From contig NZ_WRXL01000002.1 of assembly GCF_010119195.1 (NCBI RefSeq), positions 124,001 through 188,000 on the forward strand: a stretch of 64,000 bases of DNA, given 5' to 3'. The notes beneath the pieces were generated by a model, which worked only from the letters and a program-made list of their open reading frames with translations, searched no databases and was not told the DNA's origin. The DNA is from Haloarcula salina. GTDB taxonomy: Archaea; Halobacteriota; Halobacteria; Halobacteriales; Haloarculaceae. The position numbers were made by a program, and so were the translations under genes. Of this stretch, positions 1,610-21,814 are shown one piece after another (within the stretch, counting starts at the first letter, position 1; each line of letters opens with the position of its first letter).

Positions 1610-2001
1610 CGCCACACCCGAACTCGGAGCCGCCCGCGACGGACCGTTCCCGGGGCCATACGCACGCTCACGGTCCGTGTGTCGCTGTCGGCCCCGGACG
1701 GCGGTGTCGGTCCGGTACTCCACCGGCCGCCGTCGTCGACGGTGACCGTGACGTTTCCGCGATAGCCCGCCGGAACAGCATCGAGCGCCGCGTTGGTTCG
1801 CGCTGGATCGACGATCCCGGCTGACGAGAGGCGCTGCTCGACGGCGTCCGCGGTCGGCGCGGCGACGGATCGGTCCTGATTCATCGTCCCGAACGCCTCG
1901 TCGAGGACGCCCGCGTACAGCGACAGTCCGACGCCGACGGCGAAGACGGCGACGAGCGCCGCCAGCGGCTCCGTCGTCGCCCTACCCGACGAGCGTGACA
2001 T
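1606..2001 (-). CDS. Small pilin-like membrane protein (DUF7285-like)
   Basis: The product is 131 aa. The N-terminus reads MSRSSGRATTEPLAALVAVF: a basic Gly-Arg leader, then a Thr-Glu-Pro followed by a hydrophobic stretch at residues 13-32. Archaeal pilins share this layout, with a prepilin-peptidase site just before the hydrophobic segment and a Glu near the mature position +5. Cleavage after Gly6 is therefore plausible but unproven. The gene overlaps the upstream gene by 20 bp and the downstream one by 4 bp. Of the four small proteins of the operon, this is the best candidate for a processed pilin subunit. Confidence 0.8.
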   Translation of the reverse strand: MSRSSGRATTEPLAALVAVFAVGVGLSLYAGVLDEAFGTMNQDRSVAAPTADAVEQRLSSAGIVDPARTNAALDAVPAGYRGNVTVTVDDGGRWSTGPTPPSGADSDTRTVSVRMAPGTVRRGRLRVRVWR

Positions 2002-2443
2002 CGACTCCTCCCCAGGCGACGTGACCGATACTCAGCCGTTCGGGTGCAGGCCGCCACGTCTCGTTCCGTGCTCGCGCCCGGTCGAGGGCCGCGCGAAAGG
2101 CGGCGGGCGAGTCGTAGACGCTCGCCGGCGCGGTTCCGTCGAGGACGGTCCGTAGCCGCTCGGAGTCGGCCGCGACCGCGTACTGCGTGAGCCCGGCCTG
2201 TGCCGTCCCGCCGTCGTTGCGGAGCCGGAGCGCTCCGGCTTCGAGCGCCCACTCGTCGGCGAGCAGCCGTCGCTTCTCGACCGACCCGGGCGGACTCGTC
2301 GCCACTTCGTCGATGGTCGCCGCGGTCGCCGTCGCGTTCGGCGGCGCCGTCATCGGCAGTCCGGCGACGACGCCGAGGACGGCGACGCTCACCGCGCTCA
2401 GGCCTACCCAGAGGTACAGCGCGTCGACGTGTGTCTCGAACAT
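1982..2443 (-). CDS. Small pilus-operon membrane protein (DUF7283-like)
   Basis: The product is 153 aa with one transmembrane segment at residues 9-29 and an Ala/Thr-rich soluble domain behind it. It lies 38 bp downstream of the TadC/GspF-like gene and overlaps the next gene by 20 bp, so it is probably co-transcribed. A long reading frame running through this gene from 4246 is an out-of-frame shadow of the TadC gene and is not the start; the ATG at 2443 is the natural start. No known motif is present. A pseudopilin or anchor role is inferred from topology. Confidence 0.78.
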   Translation of the reverse strand: MFETHVDALYLWVGLSAVSVAVLGVVAGLPMTAPPNATATAATIDEVATSPPGSVEKRRLLADEWALEAGALRLRNDGGTAQAGLTQYAVAADSERLRTVLDGTAPASVYDSPAAFRAALDRARARNETWRPAPERLSIGHVAWGGVDVTLVG

Positions 2444-2481
2444 GGACCCTCTTGGTCCCGTATTCGGACTTAAACGTCCGG

Positions 2482-4242
2482 TCAGACCAGCAGTCCCGTC
2501 GCGACGACGGCGGCGAGAAAAGTCGCCGTGGCGGACAGGAGCGCGAGGCCGACTCGGTAGCCGACGAGCGCACGGTCCAGTCCGCGATGGAGCCCGGTCG
2601 ACAGCGCGGTCAGGAGCACGGCCAACACGAGGACGTACCAGCCGACGACGGGGCCCAGCGTCGCGCTCGGGACGGCGCTGAACTGCCCGCCGCCGCCCAT
2701 CGTCCCGGAGAGCGCGACGGTGGCGCCGCCGACCAGCGGCCCGAACAGCGCGGCGGTGTTCGAGAGCGTCTCGGTGATCCGCGCGAGGTCCCGGCGCGTC
2801 TCGCGTTCGACGGCCCGTAGCTCGTCGAGGTGGTCGCCCATCGCCGTGAGCGACTCGCCCGCCGGCGGACCGACGGTCGCTGCCGTCCCGAGCAGCGTCG
2901 CCGCTCGCCGGGCGCGCCTGCTCGGGAGGGTCGAGAGCGCGCCGTGGGGCCCCAGAAACGCGCCCTCGACGCTCGTTCTCAAGTGTTCCTGACGGGCGAC
3001 CGCGGCGTCGACAATTTCCTTGGTGGGGGACCGTGCTTCGGAAGCGGCCTCGGCCAGCGCTGACTCGACCGACTGTCCGGCGTCCAGCCGTCGGCCGACG
3101 GACGAGAGCAGGTCCGGTAGGCCCGCCTCGACGGCGTTGACGCGGTCGCGGACGCGCTTTGCGGGGCGATAGCGAAAGACGAGCGCTGTCCCCGTCCCAG
3201 TTCCGAGCGCACCGACGGGCGTCGCCCACGGCGCGACGAGCGCGGTCGCGAGACCGCCGCCGGCGACCGCGCCAGCGACGCCAGCCATCACCGCCGGCAG
3301 GGCGGTGGCCGGCACGTCCGGATGCGAACGTGGAATCGGCTTCGGCGGGAAGGCGACCGGTCGCCGGCCGAGCAGCCAGGCCGATGCGACTAGCAGCGCC
3401 GCGGGCAAGGCGACACCGTAGAGACCCGCCAGCGCCGGTCCCGTGACGGGGACCCCGGCCGCGGCCGCGGCGGGCAACAGCGACACCATCGCCAGCGGGA
3501 GCAGGACGCCGAACGCGTACAGTCCGGTGGCCGGGCCGCGGAGTGCGGCCGCGAACGCCGCCATCTCGTCCCGCGTCCCGTCGAGAATCTGTCGTCGGGC
3601 GCTGTCGAGGATCGCCGGCCGCTCGCTCGCCTGAGCCGCCGTGGCGCGCTCGACGAGGCCGACGGCGCGTTCGAGCGCCGGAAACGACTCTCCCCACGCG
3701 GCCGCGAACGCACTCAGGCCGCTTTGCGGTGTCCCGGCTGCACGCCGCCGGTGGGTATCGAGTCGGGCTGCCAGCGGTGTGTCGCTCGCACGTGTGGCGA
3801 ACGCGGTCGCCCGCTCCGCGCTCGGCCACAGCGTCGCGCCGAGCACCAGCGCGGAGACGAGCGAGGGGGCCGCTCCGAGTGTCCGGACCCGCTTCGCGTC
3901 GGCCGCGAACGGAACGCCGTAGCGTGCGAGTGCGACGATGCCGAGCGCGCCGGTGATGAGTGCCAGCGAAACGAGCGACGCCAGCGGACCCCCGACGGCG
4001 ACCGCGAGCACTGCGAGTCCGGCGGCACAGCTCGCGATTCCGTAGCCAGCGGTCAGTATCGCCGCTGCAGGCCGCGAGAGCGACAGCGAGCGACACGCCC
4101 GCCGGTAGCCGTCGGGAACCGAGGCGGTATAGGGAACGGTCGCTGCGACTGCGTCCGCGGTCGCTGCGATTGCGGCGAGGAGCGAGCGCGGCGCGCCTCC
4201 GTCCGAGCCCGAAGCTTCGGTCGATCCACTCGCGCCGCTCAT
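2482..4242 (-). CDS. TadC/GspF-type membrane assembly protein, double T2SSF domain
   Basis: This 586-aa polytopic protein is the inner-membrane platform of a type IV pilus/Tad-like machine. Hydrophobic blocks lie at about residues 58-103, 238-294, 308-355 and from 480 to the C-terminus. Two cytosolic T2SSF-like helical domains sit between them (about 150-235 and 375-480), the usual archaeal PilC architecture. The ATG overlaps the stop of the ATPase gene (ATGA), so the ATPase and its membrane partner are translationally coupled. The family is known to transmit ATPase motion to the growing filament or secretion pseudopilus. Which filament this one builds is unknown. Confidence 0.88.
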   Translation of the reverse strand: MSGASGSTEASGSDGGAPRSLLAAIAATADAVAATVPYTASVPDGYRRACRSLSLSRPAAAILTAGYGIASCAAGLAVLAVAVGGPLASLVSLALITGALGIVALARYGVPFAADAKRVRTLGAAPSLVSALVLGATLWPSAERATAFATRASDTPLAARLDTHRRRAAGTPQSGLSAFAAAWGESFPALERAVGLVERATAAQASERPAILDSARRQILDGTRDEMAAFAAALRGPATGLYAFGVLLPLAMVSLLPAAAAAGVPVTGPALAGLYGVALPAALLVASAWLLGRRPVAFPPKPIPRSHPDVPATALPAVMAGVAGAVAGGGLATALVAPWATPVGALGTGTGTALVFRYRPAKRVRDRVNAVEAGLPDLLSSVGRRLDAGQSVESALAEAASEARSPTKEIVDAAVARQEHLRTSVEGAFLGPHGALSTLPSRRARRAATLLGTAATVGPPAGESLTAMGDHLDELRAVERETRRDLARITETLSNTAALFGPLVGGATVALSGTMGGGGQFSAVPSATLGPVVGWYVLVLAVLLTALSTGLHRGLDRALVGYRVGLALLSATATFLAAVVATGLLV

Positions 4243-7533: not shown

Positions 7534-7644
7534 GTGGGTCGGGCCGCGGACGGCGATTCCGGGGCCGTCACGCCGCGTCGCCGTCGACCACTTTCACCGC
7601 GGTTACGATACCCCTTTAGGCGGGGCTGGCATACGAACGGGCAA

Positions 7645-8943
7645 ATGACACGGGTGATACACACCGGCGACACCCACGTCGGGTACCAGCAGTACAACGT
7701 GCCCGACCGCCGGGCGGACTTCCTCGACGCCTTCCGGCAGGTGATCGCCGACGCCGTCGAAGACGACGTGGACGCCGTCGTCCACGCCGGCGACCTCTTT
7801 CACGACCGTCGGCCGACCCTGACGGACATCATGGGCACGCTCGACGTACTCGAGACGCTCTCCGACGCCGGCATTCCCTTTCTAGCCGTCGTAGGAAATC
7901 ACGAGGCCAAGCGCGACGCGCAGTGGCTCGACCTCTACGAGTCGCTCGGGCTGGCGACGCGCCTCGGGGGCGACCCGACCGTGATCGGCGACACCGCCTT
8001 CTACGGCCTCGATTTCGTTCCCCGATCCCAGCGCGACGACCTCGACTACGACTTCGCCCCCCACGACGCCGACGCCGCGGCGCTCGTCACCCACGGCCTG
8101 TTCCAGCCCTTCGACTACGGCGACTGGGACGCCGCAGAGATCCTGACCGAGGCGTCGGTCGACTTCGACGCGATGCTCCTCGGCGACAACCACGACCCCG
8201 GGAAGCAGCGGGTCGACGATGCGTGGGTCACCTACTGCGGGTCGACCGAGCGCGCGAGCGCCAGCGAACGCGAGGACCGGGGCTACAACATCGTCACCTT
8301 CGACGACGAGGTCCGCATCACTCGCCGCGGCCTCGATACCCGGGAGTTCGTCTTCGTCGACGTGGAACTCGGCCCCGAGGAGGGCGTCGAGCGCGTTCGG
8401 AGCCGCGTCGGCCAGCACGACCTCGAAGAAGCCGTGGTCGTCGTCTCCATCGACGGCGACGGCGAGCCGGTCACCCCCGCGAGCGTCGAATCGTTCGCGC
8501 TGGAGCGCGGCGCGCTCGTGGCCCGGGTCACCGACCACCGTGAGATCGCAGTCGAGGAGGGCGAGACGGAGGTCAGTTTCGCCGACCCCGACGACGCCGT
8601 CACCGAGCGGGTCCGCGATCTCGGACTGAGCGAGGCCGCGCGCGACATCGACGAGACGATCCGCGCCTCGAAAGTGGCCGACGCGAACGTCAAAGACGAG
8701 GTCGAGCGCCGCGTGCGCGAACTCGTCGACGAGGGAGCGGACGCGTTCGGGACCGCCGCGGAGGCCTCCGACGGTGAGACCGACGGAGCGACTGAGAGCG
8801 ACGACCCGTCTGTCGACGTTGACGAGGCGGCCGGTGCGGACGACTCGACTGCCGCGGCCGAGACGCCCCGCAAGTCGACGGGCGACGGCGAGGACGGAGA
8901 GGCACAGACGGACGGCCAGGCGAGCGTGGAGGAGTTCCTGTGA
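7645..8943 (+). CDS. mre11: DNA double-strand break repair nuclease Mre11
   Basis: This 432-aa calcineurin-like Mn-dependent nuclease forms the Mre11-Rad50 complex that processes double-strand breaks. The phosphoesterase motifs are in order: GDTHVGY at residues 8-14, HAGDLFHD at 47-54, GNHEAKRD at 84-91, then THG and GDNHDPG. The last 60 residues are acidic low complexity and end in QASVEEFL, which resembles a PCNA-interacting (PIP) box. The ATG at 7645 was chosen over upstream in-frame codons because it places the first metal motif at the N-terminus, as usual. rad50 starts 13 bp downstream, so the two are one operon. Confidence 0.96.
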   Translation: MTRVIHTGDTHVGYQQYNVPDRRADFLDAFRQVIADAVEDDVDAVVHAGDLFHDRRPTLTDIMGTLDVLETLSDAGIPFLAVVGNHEAKRDAQWLDLYESLGLATRLGGDPTVIGDTAFYGLDFVPRSQRDDLDYDFAPHDADAAALVTHGLFQPFDYGDWDAAEILTEASVDFDAMLLGDNHDPGKQRVDDAWVTYCGSTERASASEREDRGYNIVTFDDEVRITRRGLDTREFVFVDVELGPEEGVERVRSRVGQHDLEEAVVVVSIDGDGEPVTPASVESFALERGALVARVTDHREIAVEEGETEVSFADPDDAVTERVRDLGLSEAARDIDETIRASKVADANVKDEVERRVRELVDEGADAFGTAAEASDGETDGATESDDPSVDVDEAAGADDSTAAAETPRKSTGDGEDGEAQTDGQASVEEFL

Positions 8944-20206: not shown

Positions 20207-20637
20207 ACTCACAGGCCCAGTACCTGAAGGCGATCTATCTCACACAGCAGCAGAAGGACGGTCCCGCATCGACCGGCGACGTGGCCGACATGCTCGACGT
20301 GAGCCCGGCCAGCGCCAACGAGATGATCGGGAAGCTCGAGGACCGCGGACTGCTCAACCACGAGAAGTACAAGGGCGTCGACCTGACCGACGACGGCATC
20401 CACCAGGCCCGCGAGGCCCTCCAGAACTACTGCATCATCGAGCGGTTCCTCGTCGAGGTGCTCGAAGTCGAGGAATTCCGCACCGAGGCCAAACAGCTCG
20501 AAGGCGTCATCGACGAGACCGTCGCCGAGCGACTGGATACGATCATCGAGCGCGATCCCAAGTGCCCGGACTGCTTCGACGCCGAGGACGACGTCTGTGG
20601 TCTCCTGGAAGTCGAAGTCGAGGCCACGAGCGACTGA
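20203..20637 (+). CDS. DtxR/SirR-family metal-dependent regulator
   Basis: The product is 144 aa. An N-terminal winged helix-turn-helix (residues 1-65, GDVADMLDVSPASANEMIGKL as recognition region) is followed by a dimerisation/metal-binding domain with HEKYKGVDLTDDG and, near the C-terminus, a CPDC...C cysteine motif at about 123-134 (CPDCFDAEDDVC). It is shorter than full DtxR proteins because the SH3/FeoA-like third domain is missing. Its start overlaps the ferritin-like gene by 4 bp. It probably senses Fe or Mn and controls this pair and perhaps suf. Confidence 0.85.
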   Translation: MNSQAQYLKAIYLTQQQKDGPASTGDVADMLDVSPASANEMIGKLEDRGLLNHEKYKGVDLTDDGIHQAREALQNYCIIERFLVEVLEVEEFRTEAKQLEGVIDETVAERLDTIIERDPKCPDCFDAEDDVCGLLEVEVEATSD

Positions 20638-20682
20638 CTCTCGAAGCGTTCAAGTGCGTTCCGTCGGTTACTCAGAGTACAG

Positions 20683-20701
20683 CCCGCGAGCGAGTCGCGG
20701 G
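20683..20701. terminator. Inverted repeat between regulator gene and tRNA
   Basis: CCCGCGA and TCGCGGG with a 5-nt loop form a 7-bp stem that ends 6 nt before the tRNA. It could stop the regulator's transcript or be part of the tRNA leader. No T-run follows, so terminator function is uncertain. Confidence 0.35.
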
Positions 20702-20706
20702 ACTAC

Positions 20707-20779
20707 AGTCCCGTGGTGTAGTGGCCAATCATAAGGGCCTTTGGAGCCCTTGACGGCGGTTCGAATCCGCCCGGGACTA
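20707..20779 (+). tRNA. tRNA-Gln (anticodon UUG)
   Basis: The 73-nt sequence folds as a cloverleaf. The acceptor stem AGTCCCG pairs with CGGGACT plus discriminator A; the anticodon stem AGGGC/GCCCT holds the loop CTTTGGA (anticodon TTG); the T arm is GGCGG-TTCGAAT-CCGCC. CCA is not encoded. A TTCAAG box-A-like element lies about 55 nt upstream. There is no intron. A decayed copy of the 3' part follows downstream. Confidence 0.93.
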
Positions 20780-20858
20780 TGTTGCGGCGAGCAATCCGCG
20801 AGCCGCACTTATCCGCAGCGGTTCGAACCCCAGAAGACGAGCGAAGCGAGTCTTCGGA

Positions 20859-20882
20859 CGGTTCGAATCCGCCCGGGACTAT
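20859..20882 (+). repeat. Duplicated 3' end of tRNA-Gln
   Basis: Twenty-four nucleotides, including TTCGAATCCGCCCGGGACTA, repeat exactly the tRNA 3' segment at 20757-20780, 102 nt downstream. Weaker similarity continues for roughly 25 nt past both copies (TGCG-CGA and, after a one-base shift, GAGCCGC), and a further degenerate T-arm (GCGGTTCGAACC) lies between them at 20817-20828. No 5' half exists, so this is not a second tRNA. Such tRNA 3'-end duplicates usually mark attachment sites of integrated elements, but no integrase is nearby. Confidence 0.8.
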
Positions 20883-21085
20883 TCTGCGACGAACGAGGTC
20901 GTGAGCCGCCCCTCTGTCCACCGACCGGGGGCCCCGAAGGTCTGTGTAACATCCTCTTCCGGGAACGACAACTGAATCGGGCCTGAGTACCAAAGCCGTT
21001 CAGGTCGCCTCCGATACGCAGACGTACGTGACACTCCACGAGACATAACTGTAGATTTATAATGCGGCGTGCCAACTAGTGGCAT
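20883..21085. other. Gene-poor spacer after tRNA-Gln repeat
   Basis: Together with 20780-20858 this makes a gap of about 300 nt without a supportable protein gene. It holds the tRNA-end repeat, a GAAGAC...GTCTTC hairpin at 20832-20855, and an AT-richer stretch (21050-21080) that includes the probable promoter of the acetyltransferase gene. Short frames here have no haloarchaeal character. Confidence 0.5.
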
Positions 21086-21814
21086 ATGCGAATCCGAGAA
21101 GCGGAGCCGGCCGACCGGCCGGCGGTCCGGGACGTGGCGCGACGGTCGCTGGATGCATCGTACTCGCTGGGCCCCGAGGCCATCACCAGCGCTATCGAGG
21201 AGTGGTACGACGAGGACCGCATCGAGGAGATACTGGAGGGAGACGACCGACTCCTCCTCGTCGCCGACCGGGACGGACAGGTCGTCGGGGTCTCGGAGAG
21301 CGTCTTCTCGGGCGACCACGTCGGGACGATTCTGTGGCTGCACGTCGACCCGTCCTATCGGGGCGAAGGCATCGGGTCAGCACTGTTCGACGAGACCGAC
21401 CGCGTGCTTCGCGACCGCGGGGCCGAGACGATCCACGGCCGGGTGCTCGCGGACAACGTCGAAGGGAACACGTTCTACGAGGACCGCGGCTTCGAGCGAG
21501 TCGGTACCGGCGAGGTCGACATCGGCGAGCGCACCTACGTCGAGAATCTCTACACCGACGCCGACGAGATCGGGCGCGATCCGGTCACAGACGAGTCGGG
21601 GAAAACCGTCTACGTCGATCACGATACTCACGAGAAGGGGTCGATCGAGCCGTTCCACGTGGTGTACATGACCGAGGACGGCGACGACCGCTACGGGTAC
21701 TTCTGTAGCAACTGCGAATCGCTCGCGAACGCGATGAACTCGATGGGACGGATCGAGTGCAACAACTGCGGGAACGTGCGAAAACCCCTCCGCTGGGACG
21801 CCGCCTACCTCTAG
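21086..21814 (+). CDS. GNAT acetyltransferase with C-terminal zinc ribbon (DUF5816-like)
   Basis: The product is 242 aa. The first 150 residues are a GNAT fold; the acetyl-CoA loop reads YRGEGIGSALFDE (about residues 94-106), followed by NVEGNTFYEDRGF typical of strand 5/helix 4. The last 90 residues form a separate domain with a zinc ribbon, CSNC and CNNC 20 residues apart. The substrate is unknown. The stop TAG lies in a CTAG palindrome that also supplies the stop of the convergent neighbour. An ATG at 21086 with a nearby upstream AT-rich promoter patch is the natural start. Confidence 0.85.
   Translation: MRIREAEPADRPAVRDVARRSLDASYSLGPEAITSAIEEWYDEDRIEEILEGDDRLLLVADRDGQVVGVSESVFSGDHVGTILWLHVDPSYRGEGIGSALFDETDRVLRDRGAETIHGRVLADNVEGNTFYEDRGFERVGTGEVDIGERTYVENLYTDADEIGRDPVTDESGKTVYVDHDTHEKGSIEPFHVVYMTEDGDDRYGYFCSNCESLANAMNSMGRIECNNCGNVRKPLRWDAAYL

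Follow-up and report, generated by a model that had tools for sequence, protein, structure and literature searches.

The tRNA-Gln locus

The analysed window (the whole stretch of 64,000 nt) contains a tRNA-Gln(TTG) gene whose 3′ end is repeated about 80 nt downstream. The features of the locus are:

20707..20779, plus strand: tRNA-Gln(TTG) gene, called by ARAGORN and matched over the identical span by Rfam RF00005 (61.5 bits)
20757..20780, plus strand: copy A, the last 23 nt of tRNA-Gln and one T (exact 24-nt repeat)
20783..20807, plus strand: H1 hairpin, abutting the tRNA end, with stem TGCGGC/GCCGCA and a GA..GA framed apex (folding and comparison)
20816..20829, plus strand: antiT, an inverted T-arm copy that pairs with copy B around H2 (10/14 pairs here)
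20830..20859, plus strand: H2 hairpin AGAAGACGAGCGAAGCGAGTCTTCGG, with a GA-framed GCGAAGC apex, a GNA triloop (folding and R1 match)
20859..20882, plus strand: copy B, an exact copy of the tRNA tail that closes the cassette (exact repeat and comparison)
20882..20909, plus strand: H1-like TTCTGCGACGAACGAGGTCGTGAGCCGC directly after copy B (sequence)

A preliminary description of this DNA had reported an exact repeat of the tRNA tail, and 20757–20780 and 20859–20882 were indeed identical at 24/24 nt. Because the tRNA ends at 20779, the repeated segment comprises its last 23 nt and one T. The similarity said to continue past both copies was also confirmed, and the repeat could be extended to 34 nt with 31 matches. 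The third, degenerate T-arm placed between them (20818–20830) is present, but its likeliest reading is that of an inverted copy. The orientation of the middle copy is invisible in tRNA-Gln because TTCGAA is a palindrome. In units of TTCAAAT tRNAs, the middle copy was mostly ATTTGAA.

The approximately 80 nt between copies A and B form a recurring two-hairpin cassette, in which H1, antiT and H2 are followed by B. Copy A, the tail of the tRNA itself, is presumed to be the master copy. Hairpins also occupied the place of H1 in units of other tRNAs, and H1-like motifs stood after many other tail copies; judging from its sequence, the one at 20882–20909 is probably the relic of a second, older unit. 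When 20780–20882 was folded alone, the z score against shuffled sequences was −4.9 as RNA and −4.2 as DNA, the latter on either strand. A covariance model of antiT-H2-T (R1) matched 20817–20873 with 25.7 bits and an E value of 0.0012 (0.02 genome-wide). An Rfam search of 20400–21200 (E up to 10) gave the tRNA and three other-strand matches below gathering scores, and no known family matched the unit on the strand of the tRNA.

The spacer had been explained as the footprint of an element that integrated into the tRNA 3′ end and was later lost, so that relatives with an element and an integrase between the two copies were to be expected. None was seen among 29 related tRNA-Gln(TTG) loci, the best-scoring ones from 60 genomes with a query that included the unit. 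A tail copy was found at ≥20/24 in 14 of these loci and at a weaker level (16–19) in seven, and eight had none. The relatives have short units or remnants, which is largely the pattern of short spacers without an element that the preliminary description itself had taken to speak against a footprint.

A family of units behind haloarchaeal tRNA genes

Other tRNAs of this genome also have the layout, each copying its own tail. In four haloarchaeal genomes (two of this genus and two of other families, three families in total), own-tail copies at ≥18/22, 30–300 nt downstream, were found for 66 of 173 ARAGORN tRNA rows (17/43, 19/43, 13/45 and 17/42), where the 66 rows include a few non-units and the 173 at least one ARAGORN artefact (L037). 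Two controls were used: own-tail copies were found upstream in 2/173 cases, and another tRNA's tail matched at ≥18/22 in 164 of 7302 comparisons. A unique scar is ruled out by the copies at 66/173 tRNAs. Before the unit statistics, five of the 66 rows were dropped, namely three Asp rows (a neighbouring tRNA copy), the Leu-CAA of this genome (not unit-like) and one mis-split Gln. This left 61 units (16, 17, 11 and 17 per genome).

The tRNAs with units were common to the genomes beyond chance: seven of 39 tRNA species had a unit in all four genomes, compared with 1.8 expected, and nine had none in any, compared with 2.8 expected (permutation P = 5e-5; P = 0.005 for the three families alone, at a threshold of 16/22). 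Five haloarchaea were checked gene by gene, and in four of them between about a quarter and two fifths of the tRNA genes are followed by a cassette. The fifth, a low-GC haloarchaeon of the same order (genome G153, L398–L427, 47% GC in the loci), had no own-tail copy at the 29 tRNAs tested, which came from 30 of its 43 loci. Unit loss may accompany genome composition or the loss of a factor there. An outgroup control gave four copies at 31 tRNAs (30 of 50 loci), and they resembled neighbouring full tRNA genes, clearly so for three, with the Thr case read from coordinates.

R1 matched 50 of 294 genomes of the phylum, and all 50 belong to this order. Three genomes of this order were without a match among the 20 listed of the 244 match-less genomes, and the other 224 are assumed from the sorting to lie outside the order. 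In this genome, 20 of the 21 R1 matches (E up to 1) follow a tRNA on the strand of that tRNA; the single match away from tRNAs had an E value of 0.17.

A pattern scan of named genomes gave 98 matches in 97 stretches. Four of them were chance matches without a tRNA: three bacterial by title (L265, L268 and L271), and L297 in a context like that of L268 and L271. Among the other 94, all 78 in titled records were haloarchaeal. A tRNA was called upstream in 84 of the 94, at most 377 nt away; three had the tail at the locus edge or inside an uncalled tRNA, five had a truncated or degenerate tail in place of the tRNA, and two were a tRNA-Asp fused to the hairpin. In a subset of 69 scan matches with a tRNA, copy B reached ≥18/22 in 58.

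The two fusions (L244, minus strand, about 7579–7760; L305, minus strand, about 3928–4040) join tRNA-Asp to antiT-H2-B and have neither tail A nor H1; L305 keeps approximately the first ten tRNA bases. Each may be either a pseudogene or a tRNA with its T-arm replaced by a hairpin. The tRNA-Asp(GTC) loci of two genomes (G038 and G011; L101 and L159) were unusual in another way, having two complete tRNA-Asp genes in tandem. Behind the pair in G038 stand long units, 143 and 205 nt in length.

The common architecture runs from tRNA tail A through H1, antiT and H2 to tail copy B, and units are about 90–210 nt long. In an alignment of 42 chosen units (A2), covariation was 0.274, compared with 0.107 in shuffled alignments (0/500), and the H2 stem was 97% paired with GC/CG/AU exchanges. 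These units were chosen by a sequence pattern that fixes CTG and AGTCGCAG and by antiT pairing of ≥12/14, which leaves the H2 helices and the 3′ loop as the only independent evidence. The antiT:B helix also covaried in other units, with rows selected for pairing. Among the 61 units, which were not selected by motif, 19 had AGTCGCAG, in all four genomes, and 18 of these 19 also had CGTCT; other units have other H2 modules. A freely decaying, unconserved spacer would be expected of a scar; instead, one covarying architecture recurs after many tRNAs in three families, and the earlier account of the 80 nt as the remains of a vanished element was for the most part not borne out. Scars of independent losses would not have architecture, length class and motifs in common.

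The apex of H2 was GA-framed in 34 of the 61 units. Thirty of these were triloops, of which 23 were GNA with all four bases at N. An extract of PMC4686876 states that GNA and GNNA loops form exceptionally stable DNA mini-hairpins. These apices hint at single-stranded DNA, without proving it. At 0.7%, G.T pairs were rare in the H2 stem compared with tRNA stems (4.2%), whereas antiT:B had 5.0% and the inner helix 4.9%. In antiT:B, G opposite T was favoured (35 vs. 12 T or C) and T opposite G was not (20 vs. 47).

Box C/D guide RNAs carry boxes C (RUGAUGA) and D (CUGA), and the fifth base before the box gives the pairing rule for the methylation guide. In the units, antiT ends with GAACC directly before CTGN, and the fifth base before CTG pairs with C56 of the tRNA. 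The letters after antiT were mostly CTGG or CTGC and seldom CTGA, and no constant box C was seen, which led us to reject a box C/D guide. As the boxes are not conserved, the pairing with C56 at the antiT-H2 junction is probably a coincidence.

Apparent turnover of units, and visiting elements

Copy B followed its own tail closely. Over the 61 units, 52 mismatches were found in 1342 positions, acceptor part included, a rate that is capped by the selection of units at ≥18/22. Orthologous H1 and H2 across families were 58% identical, compared with 55–56% for random pairs, which is nearly saturated. The Ser-TGA loci of the genus were informative: position 15 of the tail is C in 17 and T in 13 of the 30 loci, and all 16 copies (≥18/22, within 200 nt) have the base of their own tail. 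This agreement holds even between units that are 83–88% identical.

In arrays, the freshest tail copy is the one next to the tRNA. At a common threshold of 17/22, the first copy was better than the last in 16 of 28 arrays, equal in 11 and worse in one; without the doubled Asp locus, the counts were 16, nine and one of 26. When the threshold was relaxed to 15/22, the counts were 31 better, 13 equal and 16 worse of 60, although many of the additional matches were antiT-like stretches inside units. In the acceptor part, mismatches over 34 arrays were 0/340 for the proximal and 43/340 for the second copy, at unequal thresholds (18 vs. 15). Folding energy did not differ between proximal and distal units (15/28).

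Whole-unit differences between close relatives fall exactly at the tail. Three loci (L020, L028 and L008) have a common unit and flank, preceded by nothing, by a unit X and by a different unit Y, respectively. In Ser-TGA, L337 is without the unit that L347–L349 have before a similar H1, and in L237 a different unit separates units 1 and 3, which share 99% identity. The hairpins are also shuffled. Twenty tRNA-Gln units fell into 8 H1 and 7 H2 clusters with 16 combinations, and 22 Ser-TGA units into 9 H1 and 7 H2 clusters with 12 combinations (78% identity, short sequences in both cases). No near-identical unit was found at two tRNAs of one genome, the best of 447 pairs being 77% identical, and the highest identities among 48 within-array pairs were 99%, 87% and 84%. 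Growth thus looks local, with no sign of hopping. A dispersed transposon was rejected, given this best inter-locus identity and the 20/21 R1 matches that follow a tRNA. Simple tandem duplication as the sole source was also rejected, since neighbouring units mostly differ.

As the preliminary description supposed, tRNA tails serve integrases as attachment sites here. In the five scan matches with a truncated or degenerate tail before the unit, the foreign DNA adjoined an intact cassette and never lay between A and B. The tRNA is about 2 kb upstream in L282 and L225 and beyond the sequence examined in L235, L285 and L290. A PF00589 integrase lies just before the tail in three of the five (L282, L285 and L290); none was seen in L235 or L225, and we read the tail copy of L225 as degenerate. 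In L282 (Halobacterium sp. CBA1126), a 2-kb element (1936–4053) lies behind tRNA-Lys(CTT); after it come a copy of the tail and, next, the unit. The element encodes one tyrosine integrase, of PF00589, besides a small ORF, and a hairpin, GAGCGAAGCGAG, stands just before its distal tail copy.

The integron integrase model TIGR02249 gave no match over the cut-off in 41 genomes; 31 had weaker matches, which presumably represent other tyrosine recombinases. When IMG/VR was searched with four unit patterns, neither a whole unit nor a tRNA tail was found; two patterns gave no stretch, and the other two gave five and one that matched the pattern alone. In one of these six (L367), R1 matched in part (23.9 bits, E = 0.0035), over the pattern-selected letters. 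With the tail alone as query, two proviral contigs at tRNA-Gln were recovered. Both contigs are without such a unit. No unit was found in the phage matches listed (20 of 24 records), which end by base 105 of 231 and lie nearly all over annotated tRNA genes, or in the plasmid matches, three records whose best places end by base 90. We rejected carriage by haloviruses on the IMG/VR pattern matches and the listed phage matches.

Two IMG/VR stretches at tRNA-Gln (L210 and L211) have a nearly identical CTCAAAATTCTTACATAGTCC after the tail. A similar stretch lies downstream of a decayed tRNA-Gln unit in genome G032 (L022), and is perhaps an integrated virus.

Origin of the units and comparison with known systems

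The family was found almost only at tRNA 3′ ends. We consider, with a probability of roughly one half, that 20780–20882 is one unit of a tRNA-anchored repeat family of haloarchaea that behaves as an array of recombining DNA cassettes. Comparison of sequences shows the architecture, the tRNA linkage, the restriction of matches to one order, the polarity, the whole-unit differences, the shuffling and the concerted change of B with A. These features suggest that the units behave as DNA and that units may have been gained and lost. The direct tail copies would act as exchange points, like att sites, and the folded antiT-H2-B hairpin would be the recognised structure. Units would be added, swapped or removed beside the tRNA, the tails and antiT being the points of exchange. 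The tRNA tail is strongly selected and would serve as the master copy, holding the nearest B to its own sequence, and units pushed away from the tRNA would decay. The candidate enzymes are tyrosine integrases that visiting elements bring along and that are specific for the tail, or a recombinase of the host that works on single strands in their folded form.

A bolder form of the same idea, possible but doubtful, is an integron-like system without integron parts, in which the tRNA 3′ end is the anchor and a recombinase adds, shuffles and deletes gene-less cassettes, using folded single-stranded hairpins of antiT, H2 and tail for the exchange. It is equally tentative that the tRNA would here act as the master, holding the newest site to an exact copy.

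Several results speak against recombining cassettes. No recombinase was tied to the units, and no integron integrase exceeded the cut-off in the 41 genomes. No hopping was seen, and local duplication fits equally. The looser polarity count was less clear, and folding energy was alike in proximal and distal units. That units recur at the same tRNAs in different families is also compatible with a host function, and G.T pairs in antiT:B and the inner helix were no rarer than in tRNA. Nor was a unit seen in IMG/VR with the four patterns or among the listed phage and plasmid matches.

Selection of the unit as RNA is a tentative alternative, which we hold to be rather improbable. The unit would be a structured 3′ trailer of the pre-tRNA, with a role in termination, in RNase Z processing, or in a competing fold of antiT and copy B with the tRNA. 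The covarying stems and 97% paired H2 of the 42 chosen units are in favour, as are the 18/61 units with both AGTCGCAG and CGTCT, the preference for G opposite U in antiT:B and the sharing of tRNAs across families. All 20 tRNA-linked matches of this genome lie on the strand of the tRNA, and hairpins can terminate transcription in Haloferax volcanii, according to an excerpt of PMC7237163. However, units are absent from 9/39 tRNA species in all four genomes and from the 29 tRNAs tested in the low-GC haloarchaeon; close species differ by whole units, and the GNA triloops and the few G.T pairs of the H2 stem suit DNA. A trailer alone also leaves the identity of B with the tail through the acceptor part unexplained.

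An origin without dedicated machinery, in which repeat-flanked hairpins promote replication slippage and template switching, seems unlikely. By such events units would be duplicated and deleted, the nearest B would be overwritten with the tail of the selected tRNA, and the two arms of a hairpin would be repaired jointly. This would explain the identity of B with the tail, the antiT:B complementarity and the decay with distance. It would also account for the double changes in H2 with few G.T intermediates (0.7%) and for near-identity within arrays without copies between loci. It does not predict motifs common to different families, such as AGTCGCAG in 19/61 units and all four genomes, nor matches confined to one order and so many tRNA genes per genome. 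Selection as RNA and slippage with template switching are live rivals to recombining cassettes, and each of these readings may be partly right at the same time.

It is quite improbable that the units derive from an integrative element bounded by H1 and antiT-H2, as gene-less miniatures that travel with the help of a related integrase. The layout of a cassette corresponds to that of attP, with arms on both sides of a core, and integrases use the tails, but the 2-kb tRNA-Lys element of L282 has no H1 or antiT at its ends, and this genome has a single R1 match away from tRNAs, at E 0.17. The loss of an element once integrated at this tRNA, proposed in the preliminary description, is very improbable: tRNA tails are integrase sites here and two proviral contigs stand at tRNA-Gln, but a common architecture follows many tRNAs, and foreign DNA, where it is seen, adjoins an intact unit.

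We found no description of such units in the titles and abstract starts of the papers listed by searches of the open-access literature, and this family of tRNA-tail cassettes of about 100 bases is apparently undescribed. It would change the annotation of tRNA 3′ flanks, att sites and 'tRNA fragments' in haloarchaea. As a natural experiment, it could show how an essential gene drives concerted evolution, and either a recombination system or a class of tRNA trailer RNA not known before may come out of it. The units occur in culturable genera, e.g. Halobacterium, Haloarcula and Halorubrum.

Among known systems, REP elements are short hairpin repeats outside genes, as the units are; unlike them, the units are anchored at tRNAs and have direct tail copies. 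Haloarchaeal MITEs, PATEs and small mobile repeats, as outlined in part of PMC3119063, are likewise short, non-coding and palindrome-bearing. In contrast to the elements in that account (PMC3119063), the units are not dispersed, since 20 of the 21 R1 matches follow a tRNA, and each carries the tail of its own tRNA. The att sites of archaeal tyrosine integrases at tRNA 3′ ends, in the portion of PMC8371274 seen, share with the units the direct tail repeat and the target segment, and integrase genes lie beside such tails in L282, L285 and L290. Unlike those att sites (PMC8371274, same portion), the units have no gene or integrase between the copies, and they have an inverted T-arm copy, two hairpins and arrays.

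The cassette arrays of integrons are similar in their polarity, with the freshest unit at the anchor (16 better, 11 equal and 1 worse of 28). The attC site of integrons folds into an imperfect hairpin that is interrupted by internal loops and varies at its tip, and the units resemble it. Its core is RYYYAAC...GTTRRRY; the copies in the units are mostly GTTCRAA, with C where the core needs R, which excludes this core. Membership among integrons was rejected on the TIGR02249 result. Unlike integron arrays, the units, at about 90–210 nt, leave no room for the usual genes, and none of the 41 genomes has a TIGR02249 match over the cut-off. Unlike in integrons, the anchor of the units is a tRNA and the repeat is specific to that tRNA.
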